From positions 1 through 64,000 of the forward strand of contig DAHVAR010000179.1 in NCBI GenBank assembly GCA_027314515.1: 64,000 bases of DNA, read 5' to 3'. Positions 32,581-52,902 of the stretch are shown one piece after another (positions within the stretch are counted from its first letter, which is position 1; the number at the start of each line of letters is the position of its first letter). The notes under the pieces are model-generated. The model saw nothing but the letters and a program-made list of their open reading frames with translations. It made no database searches and had not been told where the DNA came from. A program made the position numbers and the translations under genes. This DNA is from Actinomycetota bacterium (GTDB lineage Bacteria; Actinomycetota; Actinomycetes; Streptosporangiales; Streptosporangiaceae).

Positions 32581-34287
32581 TCACTCGCTGGCACCGGGCC
32601 TGGCATACACGATACGGCCGCCCGCCATGGTCAGGTCCACCTGCGCAGTCCCGATCTCCCCGGCCGGGTAGTCGAACAGGTTGCGGTCCAGGACCGTCAG
32701 ATCCGCGCGGTAACCAGCCTGGATGGTGCCGGTGTCATCGAAATGATTGACGCGCGCGGAGCCTGCCGTGGCGGCGGCCAGAGCGGTCGGCAGGTCGAGC
32801 CGCTCGGCCGGCAGGAACGGCTCGCGGCTACGCGGCTCCGGATCGGCCGCGATGTCCCACGGTGCCATCCGGTTGACCGCCACATGCAGCAGCCACAACG
32901 GGTTGGGGCTGGAGACCGGCCAGTCGCTGCCGATCGCGAGGCTCGCGCCGCCCCGGGCCAGGCTGCCGAACGGGTACTGCCGGGCCGAGCGCTCCGGCCC
33001 CAGGAACGGCAGGGTGAGTTCCGTCATCTGGCGGTCGTAGCAGGCCCACAGGGTCTGGGCATTCGCGGTGACATCAAGCTGCCTGAACCTGGCCAGGTCA
33101 TCCGGATGCACGACCTGCAAGTGCGCGATGTGGTGCCGCAGGTCATTCGGGCCGTTGGCGGAGCGCGCCGCCGTGAATGCGTCCAGGGCATCACGGACCG
33201 CGCGGTCGCCGATCGCGTGCACATGAACCTGGAAGCCGAGCCCGTCCAGCCGGACTATCACTCGCCGCAGCAGGGCCGGCTCGAGGTAGCTGAGTCCCGC
33301 GCTGTGGCTCGCCGGGGCGACTCCGCCCAGGTAATCGGCCTGCAAAGCGGCGGTGAAGTTCTCGCAGACGCCGTCCTGCATGATCTTTACGGTGCCCGCG
33401 CTGAAGGAGCCATGCGTGGCGGCAGCACGTCGCTCGACAAGCTCGGCGACCTGCTCCTCGACGTGATCTTCGCCTCGCGTCCGGTCCCACCACAGTGCCC
33501 CGACGACGCGGCCGGTAAGACGGCCGTCCGCCGCCACCTGCTGATAGGCCTCGTAACAATCGGGAACGCCGGGATAGTCGCCGACGATTGCCTCCTGCCA
33601 CGCGGTAATTCCGAGCTCGTGCAGGTATCGCTGGCCTTCCAGCACGCCGGCGATCCGCTGTTGCAGGGTGGGCGCCGGGATCACCGATTCCACCAGCCGC
33701 ATCGCGCCCTCTTGCAGGGCACCGACAGGCCGGCCCTCGCTGTCCCGCTCGATCCGGCCATCCGGCGGGTCCGGCGTGCCGGCGTCTACGCCCGCCCGCC
33801 GCAGCGCTGCCGAGTTCGCCCAGCCGCCGTGGTGATCCCGGTTGATCAGGAACGCCGGGCGGTCCCCGGTGACCTCGTCCAGGGCGGCGGCGGTCGGAAT
33901 GCCGCCGGGGAAGGCGTCCATGTGCCAGCCAGCGCCGGTGATCCACTCCTCGCCTGGATGACTGCTGGCGTAGGCGGCAACGTGCCGCAGGTACCCGGCG
34001 CGCCCGTGCACCTGCGTGAGGTCACAGCGGAGCCGGTCGAGCCCGCCGCCGGAGGCGTGCACGTGCGCGTCCTGAAAGCCGGGCACCAGCATCCGGCCGC
34101 GCAGGTCGATGACCGTCGTGCCGGCGCCGATGAACGGGCGCACGTCCGACTCTGAGCCGACTGCCATGATCCTGTCGCCGTTGACTGCCACGGCCTGAGC
34201 CCAGCTGCGGGCAGCGTTGACCCGATAGATGGCACCGCTGACGAAGGCGAAGTCGGCCGGCCTGGCCGCGCCGGAGATGCTCACCAT
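32581..34287 (-). CDS. Amidohydrolase family protein (YtcJ-like)
   Basis: LVPGFQDAHVHASGGG; HVHAIGDRAVRDALDAF; LAIGSDWPVSSPNP; start likely ATG 34287. Confidence 0.9.
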   Translation of the reverse strand: MVSISGAARPADFAFVSGAIYRVNAARSWAQAVAVNGDRIMAVGSESDVRPFIGAGTTVIDLRGRMLVPGFQDAHVHASGGGLDRLRCDLTQVHGRAGYLRHVAAYASSHPGEEWITGAGWHMDAFPGGIPTAAALDEVTGDRPAFLINRDHHGGWANSAALRRAGVDAGTPDPPDGRIERDSEGRPVGALQEGAMRLVESVIPAPTLQQRIAGVLEGQRYLHELGITAWQEAIVGDYPGVPDCYEAYQQVAADGRLTGRVVGALWWDRTRGEDHVEEQVAELVERRAAATHGSFSAGTVKIMQDGVCENFTAALQADYLGGVAPASHSAGLSYLEPALLRRVIVRLDGLGFQVHVHAIGDRAVRDALDAFTAARSANGPNDLRHHIAHLQVVHPDDLARFRQLDVTANAQTLWACYDRQMTELTLPFLGPERSARQYPFGSLARGGASLAIGSDWPVSSPNPLWLLHVAVNRMAPWDIAADPEPRSREPFLPAERLDLPTALAAATAGSARVNHFDDTGTIQAGYRADLTVLDRNLFDYPAGEIGTAQVDLTMAGGRIVYARPGASE

Positions 34288-34316: not shown

Positions 34317-36146
34317 TCAGTCCGGCGGGACGGTCTTGTACAGCAGCGACAGGTCGATGCCGTTTATCCGGTTCTGGATGTCGCGGATCCAGTAGATGAT
34401 GACGGCGATCACCACGACGCCGAGCATGAACGTCACGCCGGAGGTGTTCAGGTAGCTCAGCACGCTCTGCGATGCGCCAGGCTTGAGCAGGTGCTTGATC
34501 GCGGTAATGATCGGATCGATGCCCGCGTACCAGTACACGATCGCGCCGAACGCCAGCCACACCACACCCATCACCGGAAGCCATCTTCGCCATGGCGCGC
34601 TGCGAAGCAGGTCAGGCCGGGTGAACGGGGCGACGATGGCATTGACGCCAGGCATGAGCCAGGCGAGCAGCGCACACAGCCCGCTGAACCACGCCGACCC
34701 GGCCAGGTCCAGCTTGCCGCCTGGCGCGACGCTGGCGGGCAGGAAGGAGAAGTTCTCCAAGACCACCAGCGCCACGGAGATGCCGACGAGGGTCAGGATC
34801 GCGTTCAGCGGGGCGCGGACCCGTTCGTTGATCTTGCAGAACCAGCTCGGCACCTGCCGGTCCAGGCCCCATGCCAGCACTATCCGGCTCATGAAGTTGA
34901 TGTAGACGGGGATCAGCACGAACGGCAGGATGCCGCCGAAGAAGTTGATCACCAGGAACAGGAACCAGCCGCCGGGCCGCGACATGGCGGCCAGCAAAGG
35001 CGCCGCATTCGGCTGGCCCAGCGGCGTCTTCGGGCTGCCTGACCAGAACAGCGCGCTCCAGCCGAGCTGAAGCTTGAAGCCGAGCCGCCGGGACAGCAGG
35101 TCGATGTAGACCGAGTTCAGCAGGACGCCGATGGACAGCGCGCCCAGCACCGCGATCATGATGCCGCGCTTGATGTTGCCGCGGACCTCGCCGGCGATGT
35201 AGGCGCTGTACTGGAAACCGATGTAATTGAACAGCACCAGGAAGACGAAGATCGACAGCGTTGACGGAACGAAACTCACGCCGTGCCCGGCGACCCCGTA
35301 GGTGTCGGCCGCCTTCTGGATCTGCGCCACCGTCATGCCGGTGTAGCGCGGCAGGTTCGCGTCCAGGTGCGACGGGCTGATGAGTGGCAGCCCCGCGAAG
35401 AACATCAGGAGGGCCGCAGCGACGCCGGCCGCTGCTAGCACCGTGACGATGCGATGCAGCCTGCGGGTGGGCTGGATGACGACGATCACCACCAGCAGCA
35501 GCACGACCAGGCTGGCAATGAAGCCTGGCCACTCGGTGATCGCGCCGCCCTGGCTGAACCAGTTGTCGGCGCCCTTGAAGAACGAGGACCCGGTGCCAAC
35601 CCAGACGATCAGACCGTCGATCTGCAGGTTGCGCAGTATGACCGGGATCTCGAACGCGATGACGGCAAGCGAGGCGAAGCACAGCGTGAATCCCTCTAGC
35701 CAGCCCAGGAACGGCCCGGCCTTCGGGATGAACCGGCTGGTGAACACGTAGTCACCGCCGGACCGGGGCATGACCGTGGCCAGCGACGAGAAGATCAGCG
35801 CGAGCAGGACGCCGAAGCACGCGGTGATGATGGCCGCCCAGCCGTAGGTGGAGAACGGGCCGAGCAGCCCGACCGGCAGGAACGCCAGCCCGTAGAACGC
35901 CGTGTACCAGCCGACGCCGGTTCCGATGAACGCGGCTGTGTTATAGAACAGCGCGTTGAGGACGCTGACCTCGCGCACCAAACCGGATGACTGCCGAACG
36001 AACAGGCTCGCCCCGCCTGGCGACGGGGCTGCTGACTGTCCGCTGGGAACGGCGCCTTCGGCCACCGCGCATCCCTTCCCCGGCGGCGCCACGCCAGGCG
36101 CGATTGCCGGTTCTCTGCCCTGCCCAGGTTCTCTTTTAGTTCGCAC
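34317..36146 (-). CDS. APC-superfamily amino acid permease
   Basis: 12-TM-like; ATVMPRSGGDYVFTSRFIPKAGPFLGWLEG. Confidence 0.9.
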   Translation of the reverse strand: MRTKREPGQGREPAIAPGVAPPGKGCAVAEGAVPSGQSAAPSPGGASLFVRQSSGLVREVSVLNALFYNTAAFIGTGVGWYTAFYGLAFLPVGLLGPFSTYGWAAIITACFGVLLALIFSSLATVMPRSGGDYVFTSRFIPKAGPFLGWLEGFTLCFASLAVIAFEIPVILRNLQIDGLIVWVGTGSSFFKGADNWFSQGGAITEWPGFIASLVVLLLVVIVVIQPTRRLHRIVTVLAAAGVAAALLMFFAGLPLISPSHLDANLPRYTGMTVAQIQKAADTYGVAGHGVSFVPSTLSIFVFLVLFNYIGFQYSAYIAGEVRGNIKRGIMIAVLGALSIGVLLNSVYIDLLSRRLGFKLQLGWSALFWSGSPKTPLGQPNAAPLLAAMSRPGGWFLFLVINFFGGILPFVLIPVYINFMSRIVLAWGLDRQVPSWFCKINERVRAPLNAILTLVGISVALVVLENFSFLPASVAPGGKLDLAGSAWFSGLCALLAWLMPGVNAIVAPFTRPDLLRSAPWRRWLPVMGVVWLAFGAIVYWYAGIDPIITAIKHLLKPGASQSVLSYLNTSGVTFMLGVVVIAVIIYWIRDIQNRINGIDLSLLYKTVPPD

Positions 36147-36266: not shown

Positions 36267-37187
36267 CTAACGGTGAGCGCCGCCGGTCAGCGCGGCTGCC
36301 GGGTTGGCGGTCACCAGGCTCTGCGCTTCCTGGCGGTCGAGCCCGGCATCGATGAGCAGCGGCAGGAAATCGGTCAGCAGATAGCCGTAGCCAGGGCCGC
36401 CGTCAGCCCGCAGGTGCCCGCGCAGGAAGACATCGTGCGACAGCAGCACCTGGGCGCCGAAGCCGGCCCGCACCAGGGCCAGCACGTAGTCCACCGCCCG
36501 GCGCAGATCGTAGGCAGTGCCGGTGCCGATCGAGTCGAAGGAGACATAGCTGCCCTGCCGAGCGAGCGCCAGATGGTAGTCCGGGATCGGGACCGTGTCG
36601 GCGTGACCGACGATGACCCGCCGCGGGTCCACGCCCTCCTCGCCGAGCAGCCGCAGTTGCTCCAGGCCGACCGGCCACCGGGCCGCGTGCGTGCTGATCG
36701 TCAGCCCGGTCCGCAGGTGCGCGCGTGCCGCCGCCCGGAAGGACCGCTCTTCAGCCGCCGAGATATACCACTTGTCGGCGCCGATCTCGCCGATGATGCC
36801 GGCCCGGATGCCGGTCTGGTGCACGCCTTCCTCGATGTCCGCGACCATCTCATCCGCGATGGCATCAACGGCGTGCCGGTCGAACCACTCGCGGTTCAGG
36901 TACGGATCCCGGTAATGGCCGCAGCCCATGATGATGGTGACGCCAGCCGCCCTGGCGACTCGCTGGAGCGCTGCGGGATCCCGGCCGATCTCGTCCGGCG
37001 TCAGGTCGACCAGGGTCTGCCCGCCTGCCTCGCGCAGCAAGCCGAGTTCCTGGCGCGCCAGGTGCTCGTCGTTGAGCAGTCCGGTACCCCGGTACTCCCG
37101 GACCAGGTCAGCGAACACGTGCTCGTGCGGCAGCACGACTCCGAGGTCGGACGCCTCGACGGGGCCGGTGACAGACATGACCTGCAT
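36267..37187 (-). CDS. Phosphotriesterase-family metal-dependent hydrolase
   Basis: GVVLPHEHVFADL; GIIGEIGADKW; STHAARW; VIVGHADTVP; LLSHDVFLRG. Confidence 0.85.
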   Translation of the reverse strand: MQVMSVTGPVEASDLGVVLPHEHVFADLVREYRGTGLLNDEHLARQELGLLREAGGQTLVDLTPDEIGRDPAALQRVARAAGVTIIMGCGHYRDPYLNREWFDRHAVDAIADEMVADIEEGVHQTGIRAGIIGEIGADKWYISAAEERSFRAAARAHLRTGLTISTHAARWPVGLEQLRLLGEEGVDPRRVIVGHADTVPIPDYHLALARQGSYVSFDSIGTGTAYDLRRAVDYVLALVRAGFGAQVLLSHDVFLRGHLRADGGPGYGYLLTDFLPLLIDAGLDRQEAQSLVTANPAAALTGGAHR

Positions 37188-37257: not shown

Positions 37258-37884
37258 ATGTACCTCAGCCCGACCGAGGAAGACCGGCTCCGCATCTTCA
37301 CGGCCGCCGAGCTGGCCCGCCGCACCCGAGGCGACGGCGTCAGGCTCAATGCGCCGGAGGCGACCGCGCTGATCTGCGATGAGATGCACCGCGCCGCCCG
37401 GGCGGGCGCGTCGCTTGACGCCGTTCTCGCGGCCGGCCGGTCAGCCGTCGGGCCGGACGAGGTGCTGGACGGGGTGCCGGCCCTGGTGGCGGAGATCAGG
37501 ATCGAAGTACTGCTCGAGGACGGGACGCGCCTGGCGGTGCTGCGTGACCCGCTCGGCACCGGCACTGGCAGTCAGCCAGGCAACATCGCGCGGCCGGGCG
37601 AGATCCGGGTGCCCGCCGGTGAGATCCCGCTCACCCCTGGTCAGCCCAGGCTGCGGATCCGGGTTACCAGCTCCTCGGCCAGGCCGATCCGGGTGTCGTC
37701 GCATTACCCGTTCTGGCGCGTCAACTCCCGGCTGGAGTTCGACCGCGCCGCGGCAGTGGGTTACCGGCTGGACATACCGGCCGGCGCGTCGGTTCGCTGG
37801 GCGCCCGGCGAGATCAGGGAGGTCGACCTCGTGCCATTCCGTCCCGAATCCGTGACCACCGCGCCCGTCGCCGGCCCGGCCTGA
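37258..37884 (+). CDS. ureAB: Urease-like gamma-beta fusion subunit
   Basis: MYLSPTEEDRLRIFTAAELARR (gamma) fused to PGEIRVPAGEIPLTPGQ...PIRVSSHYPFWRVNSRLEFDRAAAVGYRLDIPAGASVRWAPGEIREVDLVPF (beta); lacks the usual beta C-terminus. Confidence 0.85.
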   Translation: MYLSPTEEDRLRIFTAAELARRTRGDGVRLNAPEATALICDEMHRAARAGASLDAVLAAGRSAVGPDEVLDGVPALVAEIRIEVLLEDGTRLAVLRDPLGTGTGSQPGNIARPGEIRVPAGEIPLTPGQPRLRIRVTSSSARPIRVSSHYPFWRVNSRLEFDRAAAVGYRLDIPAGASVRWAPGEIREVDLVPFRPESVTTAPVAGPA

Positions 37885-37888
37885 AACG

Positions 37889-39634
37889 GTGGCCGGCGTG
37901 CGCCAGGATGCCTACACCCTGAGGTTCGGCCCGACGACCGGTGACCGCGTCCGGCTCGCGGACACCGATCTGTGGCTGCGGGTGGAAGCCGATCACGTCG
38001 GCTACGGCGACGAGCCGCTCTGGGGGTACGCCAAGAACATCCGGTCCCGGATGACGCAGCAGGACAGCGCGACCTCCGCGAGCGAGCTGGACGTGCTGAT
38101 CGCCGGCGTACTCGTCGTTGATCCGCTGCTCGGCGTGCTGAAGGCCAGCATCGGCATATCCGGCGGACGCATCGTGGGCATCGGCCGGGCCGGCAACCCC
38201 GACATCACGGCCGGCGTGGACATGACGATCGGGCCCAACACGCTGCCGATCATGGGTTACGGGCTCATCGCCACCGCGGGCGCTGTCGACTCGCACGTGC
38301 ACCTCATCACGCCGCGGCTAGTCCCGGTCGCGCTCAGCGCCGGAGTCACCACCTTGATCACCGCCGGCTTCGAGGAGCCGCCGGCCGCGATGAGCGCCAC
38401 GCTCCGCGCGTTCGAGCAGCTTCCCGTCAACCTCGGGCTGCAGGCGAGCGCCAGGACGCAGGCTCCCGCCGCGCTCGAACGGGTGCTGGCAGCCGGCGCC
38501 GTCGGCCTCAAGATCCACGAAGACTGGGGGGCCTATCCGGAGATCGTCGACGCAGTGCTGCGCCTCGCCGACTCCCACGACGTCGCCGTCGCGCTGCACA
38601 CTGACGGGCTCAACGAGTCGTGCGAACTGCAGGACACCGTCGCCGCGATCGGCGGCCGCGCCATTCACGCCTACCACGTCGAGGGCTCCGGCGGCGGCCA
38701 CATTCCGGACCTGATCGGGCTCGTCCGCGAGCACAACGTCATCTGCTCGTCGACCACGCCGACCATCCCGTACGGCGTGCACGCCGCGGCCGAGCATCCC
38801 GAGATGATCATCGCCGTGCACGGCGGCTCGGGAACCGACCCCGGCGACCGCCTCCTGGCGGCGGAGCGGGTGCACCCGCCGACGATGGCTGCCGAAGGAC
38901 CACTGCACGACCTCGGTGCTATCGCCATCATCAACAGCGACTCCCAGGGCATGGGCCGGATCGGCGAGACCGTGCGCCGCACCTGGCAGCTCGCCCATGC
39001 CATGAAGGCCTGGCGGGCGACCGAGGCCGGGACAGGCTGGCCGGACGGCCCGGCCGTCGCCCGGCTTGCCCCGCGGCGGCCAGGCTCACTGTGCGACGAC
39101 GGCCTCGGCCCGGACGACAACGAGCGGGTGCTGCGATACCTCGCCAAGTACACGATCGAGCCGGCGCTGACGCACGGCATCGCGGCCGAGGTCGGCACGC
39201 TGGCACCCGGCCGGCTGGCCGACATAGTGCTCTGGCGTCCCGCCTTCTTCGGCGTGCGCCCGGAGCTGATCCTTAAGTCCGGTCACTTCGCCTGGGGTGC
39301 CATCGGCGAGGGAAACGCATCGGTCGAGGCCGCCGAGCCGCGCCGCTACGGCGCCCACTGGGGCGGCCTGGGCAACGCGCCGCCGTCGCTGTCGGTGACC
39401 TTCGTCTCGCAGGCGGCACTGGACGACGGCGTCGCCGGCAAGATCGGCAGCAGACGCCGCTTCGCCGCCGTGCACGGCACGCGATCGGTCCGGCGGGGCG
39501 ACCTGATCGCCGGGCGCGCCTGGCCGCAGGTCGATGTCGACCCGGCCGACGGCACCGTCAGCCTCGGTGGCCGGATGCTGGCAGCGCCGCCAGCCGCTAC
39601 CGTGCCGATGTCCCGCCGGTACCTGCTCGCCTGA
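37889..39634 (+). CDS. ureC: Divergent urease-like alpha subunit (UreC homolog)
   Basis: DSHVH, GLKIHEDWGA, VALHTDGLNE, GGGHIPD, NSDSQGMGR conserved; flap MVCHHLDP replaced by IAVHGGSGTDP; the ATTCTPGPW segment absent. Confidence 0.85.
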   Translation: MAGVRQDAYTLRFGPTTGDRVRLADTDLWLRVEADHVGYGDEPLWGYAKNIRSRMTQQDSATSASELDVLIAGVLVVDPLLGVLKASIGISGGRIVGIGRAGNPDITAGVDMTIGPNTLPIMGYGLIATAGAVDSHVHLITPRLVPVALSAGVTTLITAGFEEPPAAMSATLRAFEQLPVNLGLQASARTQAPAALERVLAAGAVGLKIHEDWGAYPEIVDAVLRLADSHDVAVALHTDGLNESCELQDTVAAIGGRAIHAYHVEGSGGGHIPDLIGLVREHNVICSSTTPTIPYGVHAAAEHPEMIIAVHGGSGTDPGDRLLAAERVHPPTMAAEGPLHDLGAIAIINSDSQGMGRIGETVRRTWQLAHAMKAWRATEAGTGWPDGPAVARLAPRRPGSLCDDGLGPDDNERVLRYLAKYTIEPALTHGIAAEVGTLAPGRLADIVLWRPAFFGVRPELILKSGHFAWGAIGEGNASVEAAEPRRYGAHWGGLGNAPPSLSVTFVSQAALDDGVAGKIGSRRRFAAVHGTRSVRRGDLIAGRAWPQVDVDPADGTVSLGGRMLAAPPAATVPMSRRYLLA

Positions 39635-39653: not shown

Positions 39654-41105
39654 GTGACCGGCCTGTGCCTGCAGGATGCCGTCGTGCTCGCTGAGATGCT
39701 GCGCCGACGCGAGGTGTCGGCGCGCGAGGTGATCTCGGCGCACGTCGCCCGCATCGAGGCGTTCGACCCGGCCATCAACGCCATCGTCACCCGCACGTTC
39801 GAGGCGGCAATGGCACGGGCCGCGCAGGCCGACGAGACAGCCGCCCGCGGCGGCCCGCTTGGCCTGCTGCACGGGCTGCCGGTGGCGCACAAGGATCTGG
39901 CCGACACCGCGGGCGTCCGGACCACCTACGGCTCGCCGTTGTTCGCGAGCAACGTGCCACAGCGCGACGCGCTCGTCGTGCAGCGGATGGCGCGGGCAGG
40001 CGCGATCAGCCTGGGCAAGACCAACGTGCCGGAGTTCGGAGCCGGCTCGCATACCGTCAACCCGGTGTTTGGCGCCACCCGCAACCCTTATCAGCTAGAC
40101 CGTAGCGCAGGCGGCAGCAGCGGCGGCGCGGCGGCGGCGCTCGCTGCCCGCTTCGTCGCCCTGGCCGACGGCAGTGACCTGGGCGGATCCTTGCGCAACC
40201 CGGCCAGTTTCTGCAACGTCGTCGGGCTGCGCCCGAGCCCGGGCAGGGTGCCGGACTGGCCGCTGGCCGATGTCGCCGACCAGTTCGCCGTGGCCGGGCC
40301 GATGGGACGCACGGTCGCGGACACGGCGCTGCTGCTGGCTGTCCTGGCCGGGCCGGACCCGCGGGTTCCGCTGGCCCTGGACCAGCCGCCGCCTGCGATA
40401 GCCAGCCCCGCGCAGATCGGCGCGCTGCTCGACAGGGACCTGGCCGGGCTGAGGATCGCCTGGAGTCCCGATCTCGGCCTGCCGGTCGAGCCCGATGTGC
40501 TCGAGGTGCTCGCTCCCGCGCGGCAGATCCTGGCCGGACTTGGCGGCAGTGTCACCGACGCCGCGCCGGACCTGTCCGGTGCCGACGAGGTGTTCCGCAC
40601 CTTCCGGGCCTTCGCCTTCGCGACGTTCCGCGCCGGGCTGGTGGCCGGGCATCCGGACCTGGTCGGCCCCAACGTCACCTGGAACACCCAGCGTGGCCTC
40701 GAGCTCGCCACCACCGACCTCAGCCGGGCGACAGTGCTGCGCGCCGGGCTGGCCGAGCGGATCAGCGCGTTCTTCGCCGACTTTGACGTGCTCGCCTGCC
40801 CGGTCACCCAGGTCGCGCCGTTCGACGTGACACTCGACTGGGTGCACGAGATCAACGGCCGTCCGCTGCGGACGTACCTGGACTGGATGGCGTCGTGCTA
40901 CCTGATCTCCGCGACCGGCCTGCCGGCCGTCAGCGTGCCAGCGGGTTTCACCCGCACGGGCCTGCCGGTCGGGCTGCAACTGGTCGGCTGCCGCCGGGGC
41001 GACTGGGACCTGCTCGCCGTTGCCCGCGCGTTCGAGTCGGCCACCGGCTACGCCGCGAGGCTGCCGGACTGCGCACCCGCACTGACGCTCGCCCCTCCTG
41101 ACTAG
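39654..41105 (+). CDS. Amidase-signature family amidase
   Basis: LPVAHKDLADTAGVRTTYGS (Lys), LDRSAGGSSGGAAAALAARFVALADGSDLGGSLRNPA (Ser-Ser-Lys signature). Confidence 0.95.
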   Translation: MTGLCLQDAVVLAEMLRRREVSAREVISAHVARIEAFDPAINAIVTRTFEAAMARAAQADETAARGGPLGLLHGLPVAHKDLADTAGVRTTYGSPLFASNVPQRDALVVQRMARAGAISLGKTNVPEFGAGSHTVNPVFGATRNPYQLDRSAGGSSGGAAAALAARFVALADGSDLGGSLRNPASFCNVVGLRPSPGRVPDWPLADVADQFAVAGPMGRTVADTALLLAVLAGPDPRVPLALDQPPPAIASPAQIGALLDRDLAGLRIAWSPDLGLPVEPDVLEVLAPARQILAGLGGSVTDAAPDLSGADEVFRTFRAFAFATFRAGLVAGHPDLVGPNVTWNTQRGLELATTDLSRATVLRAGLAERISAFFADFDVLACPVTQVAPFDVTLDWVHEINGRPLRTYLDWMASCYLISATGLPAVSVPAGFTRTGLPVGLQLVGCRRGDWDLLAVARAFESATGYAARLPDCAPALTLAPPD

Positions 41106-42727: not shown

Positions 42728-43837
42728 GTGAGCCAGGAGGTCGGCTCCGGCAGCCAGCCGCCCACGATCTATGACGTGGCCAGGGCCGCCGGTGTGTCCA
42801 TCGCCTCGGTCTCGCGCGTACTCAACGACCAGGGCAACCCGCGCGCCGACACCAGGGAACGGGTCCTGCACGCGGTAGCCGAGCTTGGCTTCGTGCCTGA
42901 CGGCGCCGCTCGGGCACTGAGCGCCCGGCTCAAGGAAGTGGTCGGCGTGGTCGTCCGGCGGCCCCAATGGCTTGACGGCAGCCTGTTCACCGACGAGGAC
43001 GAGAACCTCCAGTTCCCCGACATGATCAACCGCGGCATGGAGATCGTCGCCCAGCGGCATGGCTTCGACCTGCTGATCAGGTCAGTCGACCTGGACGAGG
43101 CGAACGCGGGCAGCCGGATCTTCGCGCTCGCCCGGAAGAGCGACGGGATCATCCTGCACGACCGGGTGCTGGACCCTGATCAGCTCGACCGGCTCGCCCG
43201 GCAGCTTCCCGTCGTCACGCTGGCCGGCCTGCCGACCGCCGCGACGGCGAACGTCCACGGCGACAACGACAGCGGCATGCGGGCCGTGGCACGGCACCTG
43301 ATCCATGACCATGGCTACCGCACGCTGGCCTACCTGGCTGGCCACGAGGGCAGCCCGGACAGCATCACCCGCGGTCGCGCGCTCGCCGACGAAGCCCGGG
43401 CCGCGGGTGTGACGCTTCAGGCGGGCGACGCGTGGCAGGGCGGCTACCAGGCGGCGGGCGGCGCGGCCGCGATCGAGCGCCTGATCGCGGCGGGCACCCG
43501 GCTCCCCCGCGCGATCGTCTGCGCGAACGACCAGTCCGCCATCGGCGTGCTGCACGCCCTCGCCCAGCACGGCATCTCGGTTCCCGGCGACGTGGCTGTC
43601 ACCGGATTCGACGACATGCCGGTGGCACGACACCTGCGTCCGCAGCTCACCAGCGTCCGGCAGTCCATCCAGGACCTCGGCGCCACCGCGTTCGAGACGT
43701 TGTACTCCATGATCTGCGGAGACGGCTCCGGGGTCCGTGGCCAGGACATTGCGCTGCCGACCCAGCTCGTCCGGCGGCGAAGCTGCGGTTGCGACCCGCA
43801 GCTCTTGGTACCGCGTAATGCACAGGAGGCCGGATAG
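42728..43837 (+). CDS. LacI family transcriptional regulator (third)
   Basis: TIYDVARAAGVSIASVSRVLNDQGNPRADTRERV HTH. Confidence 0.95.
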   Translation: MSQEVGSGSQPPTIYDVARAAGVSIASVSRVLNDQGNPRADTRERVLHAVAELGFVPDGAARALSARLKEVVGVVVRRPQWLDGSLFTDEDENLQFPDMINRGMEIVAQRHGFDLLIRSVDLDEANAGSRIFALARKSDGIILHDRVLDPDQLDRLARQLPVVTLAGLPTAATANVHGDNDSGMRAVARHLIHDHGYRTLAYLAGHEGSPDSITRGRALADEARAAGVTLQAGDAWQGGYQAAGGAAAIERLIAAGTRLPRAIVCANDQSAIGVLHALAQHGISVPGDVAVTGFDDMPVARHLRPQLTSVRQSIQDLGATAFETLYSMICGDGSGVRGQDIALPTQLVRRRSCGCDPQLLVPRNAQEAG

Positions 43838-44818
43838 ATGCTGGTGATAGCCCGGCGGCTGTTCTTCTACCTAGTTACCGCAGCCATAGCGATCAGCCTG
43901 GACTTCCTGATTCCGCGGATGATTCCCGGCAACCCGGTGGACGCGATCTTGTCCAAGATGCAGGGCGTGACCATCACGCCAGCCACCATCCACGCCCTGG
44001 ACTTGCAGTTCGGCGTCAACACCAGCGCGAGCCTATGGGGCCAGTACACACACTTCTGGAACAACGTGCTGCATGGCAACCTCGGCGTTTCGACCGCTAA
44101 CGCGTTCGAGCCGGTCAGCACTGTCATCCGGCAGGCGCTGCCGTACACACTCGGACTGGTCGGTGTCGCTACGCTGATCAGCTTCGTGCTCGGTACCGCG
44201 ATCGGCGCGATCGTCGCCTGGAAGCGCGGTAGCTGGCTGGATAACCTGCTGCCGGTAGTCACGTTCTTCCAGGCGGCGCCGTATTTCTTCCTCGCGTTCC
44301 TGGCCATCGACGTGTTCGCCGTCACGCTCGGCTGGTTCCCGTCCGCACGGGCCGCCAACGCCACCGACTTCCCGGCCTTCAACTGGACATACATCAGCGA
44401 CGTGCTCGACCACTCGCTGCTGCCTGCCATGACGATTGTCGTCGCCTCTGCGGCCGGCTGGATCGTGGGCATGCGCAACGTGATGCTCACCACGATGGAC
44501 GAGGACTACGTGCTGATCGCCGCCGCGAAGGGACTCCCGAAACGCCGAGTGATCTGGTACGCCGCCCGCAACGCGATCTTGCCGAGCGTCTCCGGATTCG
44601 CGCTGGCGATCGGCTTCATCGTGTCTGGCGCGTTGCTGACCGAGATCGTGTTCAGCTATCCGGGACTCGGCTCGCTGCTGCTGCAGGCGGTGCAGAACAA
44701 CGACTACGAGCTGATGCAGGGCCTGTTCCTGATCATCACGTTCGCGGTACTAGCGGCCAACCTCATCGCCGACTTCGTCTATGTCTTCCTCGACCCGCGT
44801 ACCCGGCAGGAGGCCTGA
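43838..44818 (+). CDS. Opp/Dpp-type ABC transporter permease (DppB-like)
   Basis: Multi-TM; RNAILPSVSGFALAIGFIVSGALLTEIVFSYPGLG. Confidence 0.9.
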   Translation: MLVIARRLFFYLVTAAIAISLDFLIPRMIPGNPVDAILSKMQGVTITPATIHALDLQFGVNTSASLWGQYTHFWNNVLHGNLGVSTANAFEPVSTVIRQALPYTLGLVGVATLISFVLGTAIGAIVAWKRGSWLDNLLPVVTFFQAAPYFFLAFLAIDVFAVTLGWFPSARAANATDFPAFNWTYISDVLDHSLLPAMTIVVASAAGWIVGMRNVMLTTMDEDYVLIAAAKGLPKRRVIWYAARNAILPSVSGFALAIGFIVSGALLTEIVFSYPGLGSLLLQAVQNNDYELMQGLFLIITFAVLAANLIADFVYVFLDPRTRQEA

Positions 44819-44821
44819 GCC

Positions 44822-45904
44822 ATGGCGGTAGGCATCGGCACCGAGCAGGTCACGGGCGGCGCGCCAGTGCCAGGCGCCGCGCTGCTGGGCACAGGCTCGC
44901 CGCGGCGGCGGCAGCGGGCGCTGCGACTGCCCCGCTCACCGAAGATCATCGTGGGCCTGGCCATGCTGACGTTCTTCGTGCTGTTGTCGGTCATCGGGCC
45001 GCTAGTCGCGCCGTACAGCCCGGACCAGATCTTTGCCAACTCACCAGTGCCGCTGCCGCCGTCAAGCGCGCACTGGCTCGGCACCACCAACCTGCAGCAG
45101 GACGTGTTCTCCCAGTTGCTGGCCGGCGGCAGCGACATGCTGCTGGTGTCGTTCATCGCCGGGGTCATCGCCACAGCGCTTTCGGTGGTCATCGGCGTGA
45201 CCGCTGGCTACCTCGGCGGCCTGGCGGACGACCTGCTGTCCATGCTCGCCAACATCTTCCTGGTGATGCCCGCGCTGCCGCTGCTGGTCATCCTGTTCGG
45301 CTTTCTCGGGAAGACGGGCAGCAACGACCTCTTCCTGATCGGCTTCATCATCTCGGTAACGGGCTGGGCCTGGGGCGCCCGCGTGTTGCGCGCGCAGACG
45401 CTTTCGCTGCGAAACAGGGACTACGTCGACTCGGCCAAGATCATCGGTGAGCGCCGGTCCCGGATCATCTTCGCGGAAATCCTGCCGAACCTGACTCCGA
45501 TCGTCGCGAGCTCGTTCCTGTTCACCGTGCTGTATGCGGTGGGGACCTATACCGCGATGGCGTTCCTCGGCCTGGTCAACCCCAACTGGAGCTGGGGCGG
45601 CATCCTCTACTACGCCCAGGGTGCCAACGCGGAGCTGACCGGGTACTGGTGGTGGTACATCCCGCCTGGTCTCGCCGTCGCCCTGCTGGGCACGTCGCTA
45701 GTGCTGCTGAACTTCGGCATCGACGAGTTCATCAACCCGCGGTTGCGCGCGGCCGGGCTGAGCCGCCGCGGCGGCGACCGGAAGCGTGCTCGGGCGCTGC
45801 GCAGCCAGCAGTTCGCGCTGACCCCAGTGCTCCCGGTCTCGCGACCGCCCGCCGCGCCTCTGGACACGACCGCCGCAACCGCCGGGAACGGAGGCCGGGC
45901 ATGA
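44822..45904 (+). CDS. Opp/Dpp-type ABC transporter permease (DppC-like)
   Basis: HWLGTTNLQQDVFSQLLAGG; GWAWGARVLRAQTLSLRNRDYVDSAKIIGE. Confidence 0.9.
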   Translation: MAVGIGTEQVTGGAPVPGAALLGTGSPRRRQRALRLPRSPKIIVGLAMLTFFVLLSVIGPLVAPYSPDQIFANSPVPLPPSSAHWLGTTNLQQDVFSQLLAGGSDMLLVSFIAGVIATALSVVIGVTAGYLGGLADDLLSMLANIFLVMPALPLLVILFGFLGKTGSNDLFLIGFIISVTGWAWGARVLRAQTLSLRNRDYVDSAKIIGERRSRIIFAEILPNLTPIVASSFLFTVLYAVGTYTAMAFLGLVNPNWSWGGILYYAQGANAELTGYWWWYIPPGLAVALLGTSLVLLNFGIDEFINPRLRAAGLSRRGGDRKRARALRSQQFALTPVLPVSRPPAAPLDTTAATAGNGGRA

Positions 45905-47079
45905 TCGGCGAGCGGCTGCTGGAGATTCGCGGCCTGTGCGTGGACTACGGGACCGGGCCCGATGCCGTGCACGCCGTCGCAGGCGCTGACCTGGTCCTGC
46001 ACCGCGGCGAGGTTCTCGGCCTGGCCGGCGAGAGTGGCAGCGGCAAGTCCACCCTGGTGATGGCCGCTACCCGGCTGCTGCGGGCACCGGGCGTGATCAC
46101 CGGCGGTGAGGTGCGTTTCTACCCCGCGGACGGTCCGTCAGTCGACCTGCTGGCGGCCGACTACCCGAGCTTGCGGGTACTTCGCTGGTCGCAGGTGTCC
46201 CTGGTGCTGCAGAGCGCGATGAACGCGCTCAACCCGGTGATGACGATCCGCACCCAGCTCACCGACGCGCTGGCAGCGCACTCACCCCGGATGTCACGGC
46301 GCCAGCGCCAGGCTCGTGCTGTCGAACTGCTGGAAATGGTCGGAATCAGCAGCGACCGGCTGAACAGCCATCCGCACGAACTATCCGGCGGCATGCGGCA
46401 GCGCGTGATGATCGCGATGGCGCTGGCACTGCGGCCGCAGGTCGTCATCATGGACGAGCCAACCACGGCGCTCGACGTAGTCACCCAGCGGGAAATCCTG
46501 GAAGAGCTGAAGGACCTGCGGGACCAGTTCGGGTTCGCCGTCTTGTTCATCACGCACGACCTGTCGCTGCTCATCGAGATTGCGGACGCCATCGCGGTGA
46601 TGTACGCGGGTTCCCTGGTCGAACGCGCCGCAGCGAGCGCACTGTTCAACGCGCCGCGCCATCCCTACACGCTCGGCCTGCTGAGCTCGTTCCCGCCGCT
46701 GCACGGTCCGCGTGCGCCGATGACCGGCATCCCTGGCTCGCCGCCTGACTTGCGGGCGCTGCCATCTGGCTGCGTGTTCCATCCGCGCTGCCGGTTTGCC
46801 TTCGACCGGTGCGCGCAGCAGGCTCCGCCGCTGGAGGTCGCCGGTGCCAGCGAAGGACGCCTGGTCGCATGCTGGCTGCAGCACGGCGATACGCCAGTTC
46901 CGGCCGATCTGGCGGCCCCTGAGCCGGACCTGACGACGCCAGCGGCGAGCGGCAGCACAAGCCAGCCGAGCTGGGAAGGGCCCGGCGCAGGCCAGCCGGC
47001 CGCAGTAGCTGCGCGGGCCGCGGTCGCCGAGCGGGCCGCGGTCGCCGAAGAGCAAGTCCAGCAAGGGAGATCGGCATGA
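45901..47079 (+). CDS. Opp/Dpp-type ABC transporter ATP-binding protein (DppD-like)
   Basis: Walker A GESGSGKST; LSGGMRQRVMIAMAL; start ATG 45901 with ATGA overlap (ORF track start 45649 is too long). Confidence 0.9.
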   Translation: MIGERLLEIRGLCVDYGTGPDAVHAVAGADLVLHRGEVLGLAGESGSGKSTLVMAATRLLRAPGVITGGEVRFYPADGPSVDLLAADYPSLRVLRWSQVSLVLQSAMNALNPVMTIRTQLTDALAAHSPRMSRRQRQARAVELLEMVGISSDRLNSHPHELSGGMRQRVMIAMALALRPQVVIMDEPTTALDVVTQREILEELKDLRDQFGFAVLFITHDLSLLIEIADAIAVMYAGSLVERAAASALFNAPRHPYTLGLLSSFPPLHGPRAPMTGIPGSPPDLRALPSGCVFHPRCRFAFDRCAQQAPPLEVAGASEGRLVACWLQHGDTPVPADLAAPEPDLTTPAASGSTSQPSWEGPGAGQPAAVAARAAVAERAAVAEEQVQQGRSA

Positions 47080-48281
47080 CTGCACCGATGCTGGCAGCGC
47101 CCGGCACGACCACGGCAGTGCTGGAAGCGCGCAGCCTTACCAAGCACTTTCCGGTGCACGGCCGCGTGCCGGGCGCCGGCCGGCGCCTGGCGCGGGCCGG
47201 ACGGCCAGCGCCGGTAGTGCACGCCGTCGACGATGTATCGCTCGCGCTGACCGCCGGATCGGTGACGGCGGTTGTCGGCGAGAGCGGGTCGGGCAAGTCC
47301 ACACTCGCCCGGCTGATGTCCAGGCTGATCACGCCGACCTCGGGCGAGTTGCTGCTGCACGGCCGCGCGGTGCCGCGCAGCCAGCGGCGGCACCTCGACT
47401 ACGCCAAGACCGTGCAGATGGTGCTGCAGGATCCGTTCGCGTCGCTGAACCCGATCCACGATGTGCACTACCACCTGAGCCGCCCGTTCAAGGTACACGG
47501 GATGGCCGGCTCAGCCGCGGACCTCGACGCCAAGATCGCGACCGTGCTCGATCGGGTCGCGCTGACTCCGGCCGACCTGTTCGTGCACAAGTACCCGCAC
47601 GAACTGTCCGGCGGCCAGCGGCAGCGCGTCGCGATCGCCCGCGCTCTGGCCGTGCAGCCACGGGTGCTGGTGGCCGACGAGCCGGTCTCGATGCTTGACG
47701 TATCGATCCGCCTTGGCGTCCTGAACCTGCTCGCCGATCTGCGGGATCGCGACGAGCTGGCCATCTTGTACATCACCCACGACATCGCGTCGGCAAGATA
47801 CCTGGCCGACCGGATCGTGGTCATGTACGCGGGCCAGGTGGTGGAGTCCGGGCCAGCCGTCGAGGTCACTGACGCGCCCGCGCATCCCTATACGCAGCTG
47901 CTGCTCAGCGCTGCGCCAGACCCGCAGCGGGTCACGCCGGTCGCGCTGCGCGGCGCAGGCGCGCCGCCGAGCGCGGTGGCTCCGCCGTCGGGCTGCCGCT
48001 TCAGGCTGCGGTGCCCCTACGCCATGGCCATCTGCGCCGAGCAGGCGCCGCCAACGTTTCCTGCCGGGAACGGGCAGGAAAGTGCGTGCTGGCTGCTCGG
48101 CGAAGGCAATGAGTCGTCCGCTGCGCACGGTCAGGGCACGAAGCCCGTTCCCGCCACGACATCGGCCGGCGAGGCGACCTCCCGCGTTCCGGCTCTGCCG
48201 GGGCGGCGGCCAACGGTTCCTGGTGCCGGCGAGGACACGCCTGACACCGACCGAGGAGAGGTGATGAGTACTGACGAGTGA
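47076..48281 (+). CDS. Opp/Dpp-type ABC transporter ATP-binding protein (DppF-like)
   Basis: VVGESGSGKSTLARLM; LSGGQRQRVAIARAL. Confidence 0.9.
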   Translation: MTAPMLAAPGTTTAVLEARSLTKHFPVHGRVPGAGRRLARAGRPAPVVHAVDDVSLALTAGSVTAVVGESGSGKSTLARLMSRLITPTSGELLLHGRAVPRSQRRHLDYAKTVQMVLQDPFASLNPIHDVHYHLSRPFKVHGMAGSAADLDAKIATVLDRVALTPADLFVHKYPHELSGGQRQRVAIARALAVQPRVLVADEPVSMLDVSIRLGVLNLLADLRDRDELAILYITHDIASARYLADRIVVMYAGQVVESGPAVEVTDAPAHPYTQLLLSAAPDPQRVTPVALRGAGAPPSAVAPPSGCRFRLRCPYAMAICAEQAPPTFPAGNGQESACWLLGEGNESSAAHGQGTKPVPATTSAGEATSRVPALPGRRPTVPGAGEDTPDTDRGEVMSTDE

Positions 48282-48471
48282 TGAGCCCTAACCGAACCGA
48301 TCTCTGACATCACCGGCACGCCCGGCCAGCAGGTCCGCGGAAGATCTGGGACACCCCCAGGCACATCCCGACCCGGCCGGCCAGCGCCGCGACGAGAACA
48401 GACCCCGACACGGTCACATCACGACAGGCCGACGCACAGCCGGCCGGGCACTCTTTGGAGTCTAGAGGCAA

Positions 48472-50166
48472 ATGAATCGCAAAATCGCAGGCAGCGTAGC
48501 TGCGGCTGCGGTCCTCGGACTGGGGATCGCAGCCTGTGGCTCCTCGCCGAGCTCATCCAGCAACAGTTCGGGCAAGCCGCTGTCGATCGTCACGACGGCG
48601 CTCTCACCGATGACCGACAACTTCAACCCGTTCCTGCCAACTTCGACCGGGTACCTGACGCACTCAGTGAACCTGTACGACGAGCCGCTGATGGTGTACA
48701 ACACCCAGAACACCGGCGAGCAGCCGGTGCCCGAGCTGGCCACCGGGGCCGTATGGTCTAACGGCGGCAGGACGCTCACGATCACCACCAGATCAGGCGT
48801 GAAGTGGAGCGACGGCAAGCCGTTTAGCTCAAGCGACGTCGCGTTCACGTTCAACCTGATCAAGAACAACCCAGCGCTGAACGCCAACTGGTCGATCCCG
48901 ATCCCCGCCAGCGTGACCACGACGAATTCCACGACGACCGTGCTGACCTTCGCGCAGCCGGAGCTGGCCAGCGCTTACTACATCTTGCAGACGCCCATCG
49001 TGCCCGAGCACATCTGGCAGAGTGTCTCCAACCCGGTGACCTATCCCGACGCCAACCCCGTTGGCACCGGCCCGTACGTGCTCGACCGCTTCAGCTCGAC
49101 GGGCTACACCATGAAGGTCAACCCTGACTACTACGCCAAGGCCAGCCTGCACGTGCCGGAGCTCAGCTTCCCCGCGTACGCGGGCAACGCCAACCTGCTG
49201 CCGCCTTGCTCAAACGGCACGATCGACTGGTGCGGGATCTCGATCTTCGGTGTCCCGCAGAACTACCTGTCCAAGAGCACTGACAACAAGACCTGGACCG
49301 CATCGGCGCCGTACTTCAGTGACAACAACGTCGTCGGCCTCTGGTTCAACGTCACCAAGGCACCACTGAACGACCCGGCCGTGCGCCAGGCGATCAGTTA
49401 CGCCATCAACCGCCAGCAGCTGTCGACGGACGGCGAGTCCAACAACGAACCGCCCGAGACCAGCACGGCAGGGATGATCCTGCCTGCCCAGAACAGCTTC
49501 CTGCCGTCCTCGCTCGCCGGCAACATCCCGGCGGCCGGCGACCAGTCCAAGGTCAGCTCCATCCTGACCGCCGACGGCTACAAGCAGGCTGGCGGCAAGT
49601 GGGAGAAGAGCGGAAAGCAGATCACGTTCAGCATCTCGGTGCCAGTCGCCTATAGCGACTACTACGCCGACGCGCAGCTGCTCGTGAAGCAACTGAACGC
49701 GGCGGGCTTCAACGCCTCGGTCGATGGCGTTCCGGGTAGCAACGGCGGCACCGTCTGGGCGCAGCAGCTCGGGAGCGGCAACTTCGACACCGCCATCCAC
49801 TGGGGAGCCCAGGGGCTCACCCCGTACTTCACCTACAACAACTGGATGAACTACACGCTGTCGGCACCGATCGGCAAGACCGCTGGCGCCGACTACGGCC
49901 GGTTTAACGACCCGGCGGCACAAGCCGCGCTCAACGCCTACCAGGCCGCCACCACCCCCGCTGAGCTCAGCGCCGCGCTTGCGACGCTGGCGAACATCGA
50001 GTCCACCCAGGTCCCGGTGGCGCCGCTGCTTCAGGGCGCGTCGTGGGCGGAGTTCTCCACTCGCGACTACACCGGCTGGCCCAGCAAGGCCAACCCGTAC
50101 ATGGACCCAGGTCCGAACATCCCGGAGATGCTCGCCGTGATCCAGCAGCTCAAGCCAGTTTCCTGA
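48472..50166 (+). CDS. Opp/Dpp-type ABC substrate-binding lipoprotein (SBP family 5)
   Basis: Lipobox GLGIAACGSS; VKWSDGKPFSSSDVAFTFNL; YVLDRFSSTGYTMKVNPDYY. Confidence 0.9.
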   Translation: MNRKIAGSVAAAAVLGLGIAACGSSPSSSSNSSGKPLSIVTTALSPMTDNFNPFLPTSTGYLTHSVNLYDEPLMVYNTQNTGEQPVPELATGAVWSNGGRTLTITTRSGVKWSDGKPFSSSDVAFTFNLIKNNPALNANWSIPIPASVTTTNSTTTVLTFAQPELASAYYILQTPIVPEHIWQSVSNPVTYPDANPVGTGPYVLDRFSSTGYTMKVNPDYYAKASLHVPELSFPAYAGNANLLPPCSNGTIDWCGISIFGVPQNYLSKSTDNKTWTASAPYFSDNNVVGLWFNVTKAPLNDPAVRQAISYAINRQQLSTDGESNNEPPETSTAGMILPAQNSFLPSSLAGNIPAAGDQSKVSSILTADGYKQAGGKWEKSGKQITFSISVPVAYSDYYADAQLLVKQLNAAGFNASVDGVPGSNGGTVWAQQLGSGNFDTAIHWGAQGLTPYFTYNNWMNYTLSAPIGKTAGADYGRFNDPAAQAALNAYQAATTPAELSAALATLANIESTQVPVAPLLQGASWAEFSTRDYTGWPSKANPYMDPGPNIPEMLAVIQQLKPVS

Positions 50167-50280
50167 GCACTGCCCCGACCACTACGACATCCCTCACGGG
50201 CGCTGCCTGCCCGGCCGGACTCCCGGCCGGGCAGGCGGCCAGCGCCCGGAAATCACGTTCAGCCAGGGACCAGATGCCTC

Positions 50281-52902
50281 ATGACCAGCCAGCCACTGAC
50301 AACCCGCACGTTCGGTGACACCGAGCCTGCCTTCCTGCCACCAACCGCAAGCGGCGCTAGCGAGCGCAGCCTCGTCGCGAGACTGTCACTAGCTGAGAAG
50401 GTACAGCTGCTGACAGGCGCCGACAGCTGGCGAACCTATGCTTGTCCGGCCATCAGGCTGCGCTCCATGGTCACCTCGGACGGCCCAGCGGGCGTGCGGG
50501 GCACCACGAAGGACGAGCGCAAGCCGTCGGCATGCCTGCCCTGCCCGTCTGCCCTCGGCGCGACCTGGGATCAAGAGCTCGTCTACCGGCTGGCAGCAGC
50601 ACTCGGCGCCGAGGCCCGGAGCAAGGGTGTAGACGTGCTGCTGGCGCCAACAGTAAACCTGTTGCGCTCCCCTCTCGGCGGCCGCGGTTTCGAGTTCTTC
50701 GGCGAAGATCCCGTGCTCACGGCGGTGCTGGCGGCGAGTTACGTGCGCGGCGTCCAGTCCGCCGGCGTGGCGGCTACCGTCAAGCACTTCGTGGCGAATG
50801 ACACCGAGACCGGGCGACGAACATATGACGTCCGGATCAGCGAGAGCGTGCTGCGAGAGCTCTACCTCATGCCGTTCGAGGCATGCGTGCGCGAGGCTGG
50901 TGCCTGGCTCGTGATGGCCGCCTATAACAAGGTGAACGGCACTGGGATGACCGAGAGCGTCCGCCTGTTGCGCGACGTGCTCAAGAAAGAGTGGGGCTTC
51001 GACGGAGTCGTTACCTCGGACTGGGACGCCGCCCGCAGCACGCAGGCGACCGCGCTCGCGACACTTGACCTATCGATGCCCGGACCGGACGGGCCCTGGG
51101 GCGAACTGCTGCTCCGCGCGGTCGCCGACGGATCCATCAGCGAGGACGTGATCGACGACAAGGTGGTCAGGCTCCTCCGGCTGGCCCGCCGGGTCGGCGC
51201 GCTTGGTGGCCCGGACGACGGGCTGGCCGACGGGCTGGCCGCCAAGGTATCGTCCGGCTACGGCCCGGCCGCGGCGGCCGCCGCGGTCGCCGCGCCAGCC
51301 GGCGACAGCCACGCTGCCCCCGCGCTCGTCGATGACGGCCTGCTGCGGGAGGCCGCCGCGGCGTCCTTCGTGCTGCTGCGCAATCGTGATAACGCTCTGC
51401 CCCTCGACGTCAGCGCAGTGGCCAGCGTGGCCATCATCGGCCCCAATGCGCTCTATCCAGTCATCCAGGGCGGCGGCAGCGCCGGCGTGATTCCGGTGTC
51501 CGTAGCGGTCCCGGCCGAGGCCATCGGCGCCGCACTGGCCGGGCAGGCCGCTGTTCGCACGGCCGCCGGCTGCCGGACCTGGCACTCGGTGCCGGAGCCA
51601 CCGGCTGGCTCGCTGCACGACCCGGTCACCGGAGAGCCAGGTGTCCGGCTGGAATTCATCGACCGGGACGGGTCGATCATCGCCGGCGAGCACCGGTCGT
51701 CGACGAACCTGGCCTGGTGGGATGGTGTCCCGAAGGGCATCGGCTGGGGCGAGCCAGGCCTGATTGCGCTGACAGCTACATTCCGGGCCAGCACGCCGGG
51801 AAACTATATGTTCGGCGCTGCCGGAGTCGGCGGGCTGCAACTGGTCGCGGACGGGGTTACTGTCATCGACGGCGAGACTGACGTCCCTGGCGATCCGGTC
51901 GAGGCCATGACCAGGCCGGGCGAGCTGCGGGCGGCGCTCTGGCTGGAGGCCGGGTCACAGACACGGCTGCGGCTGGAGTTCAGGCCAGCCGCGGACGGAG
52001 CCGGCCCGCTCGCCGTCCGGCTCGGCATAGTCCCGGTGGCCGACGACGACAACTTGCTGGCGGCGGCCGTGGCGGCCGCCAAGTCAGCCGACGTCGCGAT
52101 CGTCGTCGTTGGCTCCGCGGAACTGACCGAGAGCGAAGGCTTCGACCGGTCGACGCTCGCGTTGCCTGGCCGTCAGGACGAGCTCATCAGCCGGGTCACG
52201 GCAGTCAACAGCAACACGGTAGTCGTGGTGAACTCCGGGACTCCGGTTCTGATGCCGTGGGCCGCGGAGGCGGCAGCGGTCCTGCTCGCCTGGCTGCCCG
52301 GACAGGCCTTTGGCGCGGCGCTGGCAGATGTGCTGCTCGGACGCACCGAACCTGGCGGCAGGCTACCGGTGACCCTTCCGGCCGCGGAGTCGGACAGCCC
52401 GGTGCTGCACGCGGTCCCCGCCGCCGATGGCACGCTCAGCTATTCGGAAGGGCCGCTGATCGGCTACCGCGGGTACGACGCCGCGGGCGTCGCGCCGGGA
52501 TACCCGTTCGGCTACGGCCTGGGCTACACGGCGTGGAGCTACGAGTCGATCACCTGCGCCCGGGAGCTGGCCGCAGGCGAGGACCTCCAGGTCACCGTGA
52601 CCATTGCCAACACCGGCACCCGGCCCGGTAAGGAAGTGGTGCAGGCTTACCTGGCTGCGCCACCCGCGCCTGCCGCGCCTGCAAGGTCCCGCTGGCCGGT
52701 ACGGGTGCTGGCCGGGTTTGCCGTGACACGAGCCGCTCCCGGTGAGTCGGTCCAGGTTCGCCTGACGATTCCGGCCAGGCTCTTCGCCAGGTACAGTGAG
52801 GAGCTGGCTACCTGGATGACGCCGGAGTGCGAGTACACCGTCCATATCGGCAGGTCCTCGCGGGACCTGTTGCTCGCTGCCACTGTGCAGGTCGGCGCCT
52901 GA
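50281..52902 (+). CDS. Glycoside hydrolase family 3 (beta-glucosidase-like) with PA14-like insert
   Basis: RSPLGGRGFEFFGEDPVL; TVKHFVANDTE; GVVTSDWDA nucleophile region; PA14-like segment about 51620-51960; fibronectin-like C-terminus. Confidence 0.92.
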   Translation: MTSQPLTTRTFGDTEPAFLPPTASGASERSLVARLSLAEKVQLLTGADSWRTYACPAIRLRSMVTSDGPAGVRGTTKDERKPSACLPCPSALGATWDQELVYRLAAALGAEARSKGVDVLLAPTVNLLRSPLGGRGFEFFGEDPVLTAVLAASYVRGVQSAGVAATVKHFVANDTETGRRTYDVRISESVLRELYLMPFEACVREAGAWLVMAAYNKVNGTGMTESVRLLRDVLKKEWGFDGVVTSDWDAARSTQATALATLDLSMPGPDGPWGELLLRAVADGSISEDVIDDKVVRLLRLARRVGALGGPDDGLADGLAAKVSSGYGPAAAAAAVAAPAGDSHAAPALVDDGLLREAAAASFVLLRNRDNALPLDVSAVASVAIIGPNALYPVIQGGGSAGVIPVSVAVPAEAIGAALAGQAAVRTAAGCRTWHSVPEPPAGSLHDPVTGEPGVRLEFIDRDGSIIAGEHRSSTNLAWWDGVPKGIGWGEPGLIALTATFRASTPGNYMFGAAGVGGLQLVADGVTVIDGETDVPGDPVEAMTRPGELRAALWLEAGSQTRLRLEFRPAADGAGPLAVRLGIVPVADDDNLLAAAVAAAKSADVAIVVVGSAELTESEGFDRSTLALPGRQDELISRVTAVNSNTVVVVNSGTPVLMPWAAEAAAVLLAWLPGQAFGAALADVLLGRTEPGGRLPVTLPAAESDSPVLHAVPAADGTLSYSEGPLIGYRGYDAAGVAPGYPFGYGLGYTAWSYESITCARELAAGEDLQVTVTIANTGTRPGKEVVQAYLAAPPAPAAPARSRWPVRVLAGFAVTRAAPGESVQVRLTIPARLFARYSEELATWMTPECEYTVHIGRSSRDLLLAATVQVGA

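Follow-up and report, generated by a model that had tools for sequence, protein, structure and literature searches.

Among nickel enzymes urease is the textbook case, and it is generally held to require chaperones of its own. The window analysed here, a stretch of 64,000 nucleotides of an actinobacterial genome, carries a two-gene urease-like locus, and the question that it raises is whether this pair is a urease of that kind or, if not, on what it acts and how it acquires its metal.

The urease-like gene pair and its active site

The earlier note had read the locus as a divergent urease-like enzyme, and we find both open reading frames intact in the window, four bases separating the stop of the first from the start of the second:

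37258..37884, + strand: urease gamma-beta fusion homologue (208 aa, P0001)
37889..39634, + strand: urease alpha (UreC) homologue, flap variant (581 aa, GTG start, P0002)

The gamma, beta and alpha domains of a canonical nickel urease are all recognised by Pfam (E values of 1e-26 to 1e-36 over the two frames), with PF00547 at residues 1-98 and PF00699 at residues 113-195 of the fusion, and PF00449 and PF01979 in alpha. Divergence is apparent in the NCBIfam scores, as alpha reaches 573.6 bits against the urease-alpha equivalog TIGR01792 (cut-off 680) and the fusion 223.1 bits against the gamma/beta fusion model (cut-off 243); with the broader subfamily model NF009686, alpha does exceed the cut-off (659.8 bits against 354). 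The top PDB match of the fusion is H. pylori UreA, and the 33 distinct PDB sequence matches of alpha are ureases without exception. An AlphaFold2 model of alpha (pTM 0.91) matches K. aerogenes UreC with a TM score of 0.91 at 42% identity. Its structural matches include Helicobacter UreA2B2 (3qga, 38% identity in the structural alignment), and the closest non-urease folds are of the allantoinase, hydantoinase and prolidase types.

We aligned alpha with K. aerogenes UreC, whose numbering is used for all residue claims. The segments that bear on the active site, all on the + strand, are as follows:

38294..38302: HVH metal ligands, alpha residues 136-138 (K. aerogenes H134, H136)
38354..38392: shortened loop LITAGFEEPPAAM without the Ala167 segment, alpha residues 156-168
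38510..38524: KIHED, with the carbamylated-Lys position K208 (K217), H210 (H219) and D212 (D221)
38813..38869: mobile flap, residues 309-327, with V310 (C319), H311 (H320), G312 (H321) and R327 (R336)
38939..38950: D351 (the D360 metal ligand) to G354 (the Ala363 position)

The dinuclear site is complete: the metal ligands H134, H136, H246, H272 and D360 and the carbamylated-Lys position K217 are all kept, in agreement with the earlier note, as are the catalytic H320 and the flap R336 that it had named; H219 and D221 are conserved as well. Its reading of the flap substitutions (Cys319 to Val, His321 to Gly) and of a shortened GTGPAAGTHATTCTPGPW loop is borne out by the alignment, the loop having lost the Ala167 segment, and a further change that it had not mentioned is Ala363 to Gly. 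Within the canonical shell and flap (Ala167, Ala363, Cys319-His320-His321), His320 is the one residue kept. The insertion that had been placed in the flap is absent: the aligned segments, one of 22 residues and the other IAVHGGSGTDPGDRLLAAERVH, are equally long, and the flap is therefore substituted only, not lengthened.

In the urease of S. pasteurii, the urea nitrogens are bound by the backbone carbonyls of Ala170 and Ala366, and His222, Asp224, His323 and Arg339 participate in the chemistry, the flap being set by the Asp224-His323-Arg339 triad (PMC7433671). The counterparts of these last four residues are all kept in alpha; those of Ala170 and Ala366 are the lost Ala167 and the Gly-substituted Ala363. 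Taken with the alignment, these roles indicate that the set of residues performing the chemistry is kept and the set holding urea is changed. We infer that the substrate pocket of alpha is enlarged.

Relatives, phylogeny and gene integrity

A scan of 85,462 species genomes recovered six loci besides the window at 62-97% identity, below which there is a gap down to the canonical ureases at 45%. These seven sequences form clade C, whose members include Pseudonocardia acaciae, Egibacteraceae and Euzebyaceae. Surveying 395 genomes of the class and inspecting 60 loci, we found three clades of flap-variant UreC in Actinomycetota:

Clade C: loop AGFEEPP, flap VHGG
Clade B1: loop GVWDVG, flap VHR
Clade B2: loop QEFGPVWGVGVNS or close, flap VHG, VHD, VHA or similar

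In a tree of 92 UreC sequences, the 50 flap variants lie on one side of a branch with an SH-aLRT of 100, and each of the clades C, B1 and B2 has the same support; the root is arbitrary, and the tree is hence silent on descent of the flap variants from canonical urease. Phylogeny, which the earlier note had named as a check, thus places alpha outside the known ureases on a separate, fully supported branch. Every one of the 50 variants has Gly at 363 and has lost the Ala167 loop, whereas the canonical controls retain Ala363 and the full-length loop; no variation occurs at the metal ligands, His219, His320 or Arg336 in about 50 flap-variant sequences. The window's alpha shares the features of the group, namely its place on the single branch, a residue other than His at 321, Gly at 363, the short loop and the gamma-beta fusion. 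These flap and loop traits define a larger actinobacterial group, to which Streptomyces genes annotated as urease appear to belong.

Several variations within and beside the group were seen. Clade B1 (L034, L037, L038, L039, L156, L157, L161, L172, L175, L176) has Arg after the catalytic flap His, which might have a role in binding an anionic substrate, and eight of its ten loci carry a related, divergently transcribed gene whose product has a C-terminus like that of PucR-type regulators. Most Streptomyces-group members of clade B2 (L164-L168, L190, L192, L193) have Asp at 321 in place of His, and this Asp could bind the amine of an N-carbamoylpolyamine. A partial variant (L182, L183 and L186, in G093, G332 and G422) keeps VCHH, has Gly at the Ala363 position and an altered loop GLGPVTVGITSSG, and bears accessory genes, with ureD adjacent.

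Purifying selection acts on the alpha gene. In comparison with a copy from the same genus (97% identity), alpha has a dN/dS of 0.067 and the gamma-beta fusion one of 0.35, and more distant copies give about 0.3 for alpha; the value of 0.067 and the relatives in six other genomes indicate that the alpha gene is more than a chance occurrence. The beta domain of the fusion stops about 15-20 residues early. This loss of the C-terminus, stated in the earlier note, recurs in a comparison across clades: the tail is absent in the readable members of clades C and B1 and present in B2 (a K. aerogenes beta sequence served as the ruler, and the B2 rows show the tail independently). A frame or assembly error is ruled out because clades C and B1 have the loss in common, and the missing tail is a feature of the lineage.

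Maturation genes

The window's alpha is the sole ureC homologue of its genome (G000, 98% complete), and profile searches of the whole assembly for UreD, UreF and UreG returned no match to any of the three accessory proteins of a canonical nickel urease. The earlier statement that ureD, ureE, ureF and ureG homologues are missing from the 64 kb therefore holds for ureD, ureF and ureG, the genes that the searches took in, and is extended for these to the entire assembly. Six of the seven clade C genomes carry flap-variant UreC alone and no UreD; the exception is P. acaciae, with two further UreC genes and UreD.

This pattern extends to the other clades. By the UreD profile, UreD is absent from all 28 genomes (roughly 17 genera) that carry flap-variant UreC alone and present in all 26 canonical-urease control genomes (Fisher 5e-16, a value that is too small because the genomes are related and not independent samples). 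Many of the surveyed genomes are MAGs; near-complete ones among the 28 include G319 (three contigs), G299 and G099, one (G036) is 84% complete, and in four (G087, G280, G337, G413) the variant type was assigned from the score and from same-genus relatives. The profile is sensitive enough to reach canonical partners down to 48 bits. UreG over the cut-off was found in none of the 28, with a truncated UreG-like match at a contig edge in G330, and it was found in four of four canonical controls and in P. acaciae, whose genome holds a canonical urease besides the flap variant. The absence of ureD is systematic across the flap-variant group and is not peculiar to the window's genome. In G038, a genome with two variants, one of clade B1 and one of B2 (L037, L040), UreD and UreG are both lacking.

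Sister clade B2 and the proposed function

The product of agmatine deiminase, N-carbamoylputrescine, is a substituted urea. A gene of the agmatine deiminase family lies near 18 of the 34 clade B2 loci, mostly directly downstream on the same strand; some of these are bona fide AguA, and the Streptomyces type falls under the equivalog cut-off. Agmatine deiminase is present in 28 of 36 B2 genomes versus 6 of 44 others (Fisher 5e-9), and all five sampled AguA genes that exceed the equivalog cut-off belong to B2 genomes. No AguB over the cut-off was found among the sampled genomes. Many B2 genomes encode AguB-like nitrilases of 240-265 bits, which could do the same job as that proposed for B2 UreC; since such sub-cut-off nitrilases are common both with and without B2, replacement of AguB by the clade B2 enzyme is suggestive only.

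N-carbamoylputrescine itself is unsupported as the substrate of the window's enzyme. G000 has no agmatine deiminase, either linked to the pair or elsewhere in the genome, and P. acaciae is the single clade C genome to carry one; the B2 substrate is for that reason not transferable to the window's enzyme.

A different urea-like substrate or a different metal is the most economical reading of these data, and the genome context of the sister clades supports its substrate part. This urease relative probably acts on another urea-like molecule and acquires its metal in another way. More specifically, and tentatively, we propose that the pair is a flap-variant urease homologue that hydrolyses an N-substituted urea (R-NH-CO-NH2) rather than urea and is matured without UreDFG, the N-substituted urea being suggested mainly by clade B2. 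The altered pocket would admit a substituent on the urea nitrogen, the metal-bridging hydroxide would attack the carbonyl as in urease, and His320 would assist the leaving amine. The metal site would fill by itself, taking up CO2 and one of the common divalent metals (Zn, Fe, Mn or Co), instead of being supplied with nickel by UreDFG. Such spontaneous loading is known from allantoinase, hydantoinase and phosphotriesterase, which belong to the same superfamily. For the group as a whole we suggest, with somewhat greater reserve, that a widespread actinobacterial branch of urease lost its dependence on UreDFG and nickel and switched from urea to N-substituted ureas, that the specialisation of its subclades lies in the residue that follows the flap His (Gly, Asp, Ala, Ser or Arg), and that the window's clade acts on a ureido compound that no urease is known to degrade.

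Neighbouring genes and alternative readings

The genes that surround the pair in the window are these:

32581..34155, - strand: amidohydrolase family 3 protein (PF07969, 1.8e-84; true start uncertain, frame open to 34593)
34317..36146, - strand: amino-acid permease family protein (PF13520)
36267..37187, - strand: phosphotriesterase-homology protein (PF02126), divergent from the urease-like pair; top PDB match phosphotriesterase homology protein (4lef/1bf6)
39654..41105, + strand: amidase-signature protein (PF01425; PRK07486 above cut-off; PDB amidase matches), downstream of alpha on the same strand; longest frame from 39534, likely start GTG at 39654

Neighbours vary among the seven clade C loci, and the one that recurs is the family-3 amidohydrolase: a protein 59% identical to the window's is adjacent in G036, where a hydantoinase B/oxoprolinase gene adjoins it, and family-3 amidohydrolases also adjoin six of ten B1 loci (about 30% identical to the window's) and some B2 loci. 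An amino-acid permease and a deiminase lie near the P. acaciae clade C locus. Each of the two deepest clade C genes is adjoined by a divergent gene (L045:5291-7837, L046:5362-8331) that encodes a fusion of kinase, M23 and class-III aminotransferase, and the two fusion proteins are 73% identical.

Together with the allantoinase, hydantoinase and prolidase folds closest to the alpha model outside the ureases, the amidase, family-3 amidohydrolase, phosphotriesterase-like and hydantoinase genes near clade C members would fit a metallohydrolase of another amide class, acting on cyclic ureides (e.g. hydantoins), carbamates or simple amides. Such a vicinity is weak evidence because amidohydrolase genes are common in these genomes, and the gamma-beta fusion, the alpha N-terminal domain and the flap triad, all retained from urease, favour urea-type chemistry; we regard this reading as unlikely.

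Somewhat less likely still is a true urease that acts on urea with a metal other than nickel and needs no accessory proteins, as in the Helicobacter iron urease UreA2B2. It would share the metal ligands, His219, His320 and Arg336, UreA2B2 is among the structural matches, and there is a precedent in the iron-cofactored ureA2B2 expressed under nickel scarcity (PMC11541087; PMC6247508). Against this reading stand the change of Ala363 and the loss of the Ala167 loop, universal among the 50 variants of the tree and foreign to the canonical controls; moreover, many Streptomyces genomes and P. acaciae carry the flap variant beside a canonical urease, where a second plain urease would be redundant.

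The metal-site ligands, identical to those of nickel urease, would also suit a nickel urease of the ordinary kind whose maturation depends on nickel proteins, whether unknown, diverged or general (e.g. HypA/HypB), that searches for UreD, UreF and UreG would miss. We consider it improbable, given that G000 has no match to UreD, UreF or UreG with a UreD profile that reaches 48-bit canonical partners, and that UreD is consistently lacking across the 28 genomes. A nickel-specific transporter beside the pair was also considered: the ABC operon at 43838-50166 stays far under the cut-offs of the nickel families and has a GH3 glycosidase gene after it, and it therefore looks like one for sugar or peptide uptake. 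A catalytically dead structural or regulatory relic, as the altered flap and truncated beta subunit might suggest, is very improbable in view of the invariant catalytic residues and the alpha dN/dS.

The region 42728-52902 holds in a row a LacI regulator, two ABC permeases, two ATPases, a family-5 solute-binding protein and the GH3 glycosidase; it resembles an operon for the uptake of beta-glucosides or oligosaccharides and is probably unrelated to the urease-like pair. Elsewhere in the window, two dihydrodipicolinate-synthase-family proteins (1491-2474, 12081-13010) flank transporter genes of the branched-chain amino-acid type, and two FrsA-like esterases are encoded (2487-3527, 18392-19456).

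A natural branch with the metal ligands of urease but no chaperone genes would make the tie of urease to UreDFG directly testable, and with it the question of what limits urease to urea. If our reading is true, a 'urease' annotation may be no sign of urea use in Streptomyces and many other actinobacteria.

Comparison with known systems

In the open-licence literature we found no characterised member of the flap-variant group and no test of substrate or metal for the Streptomyces ure(AB)C genes. The Streptomyces cluster was noted in 2008 to consist of ure(AB)C only (PMC2492869), and like the window's locus it has a gamma-beta fusion and an alpha gene in a cluster without accessory genes. S. coelicolor SCO5525-5526 and S. 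avermitilis SAV2715 apparently belong to clade B2, judged by gene order. Clade B2 of Streptomyces is altered in flap and loop in the same manner as the window's alpha; it differs from clade C in its sequence (about 45-50% identity), in keeping the beta tail and in its flap, VHG or VHD. SCO5525-5526 are listed as a urea-utilising ureABC, and the adjoining SCO5527 as a homologue of the arginine decarboxylase pathway (PMC3293853).

Iron-cofactored ureases are made from a two-gene ureA2B2 locus under nickel scarcity (PMC11541087; PMC6247508). Helicobacter mustelae UreA2B2 resembles the window pair in being a two-gene locus (gamma-beta and alpha) outside an accessory cluster; however, its genome also holds a canonical urease cluster, and its use of iron is established. 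AguB, the N-carbamoylputrescine amidohydrolase of the nitrilase family, catalyses the reaction proposed for B2, from R-NH-CO-NH2 to amine, CO2 and NH3, but its fold is unrelated to urease and its partner AguA is missing from the window's genome. From the K. aerogenes UreABC nickel urease (EC 3.5.1.5), the window pair differs in the changed Cys319, His321, Ala363 and Ala167 loop, the gamma-beta fusion, the missing beta tail and a genome without ureD, ureF and ureG, whereas the two share the gamma, beta and alpha domains, the fold, the metal ligands, the carbamylated-Lys position and His219, Asp221, His320 and Arg336.
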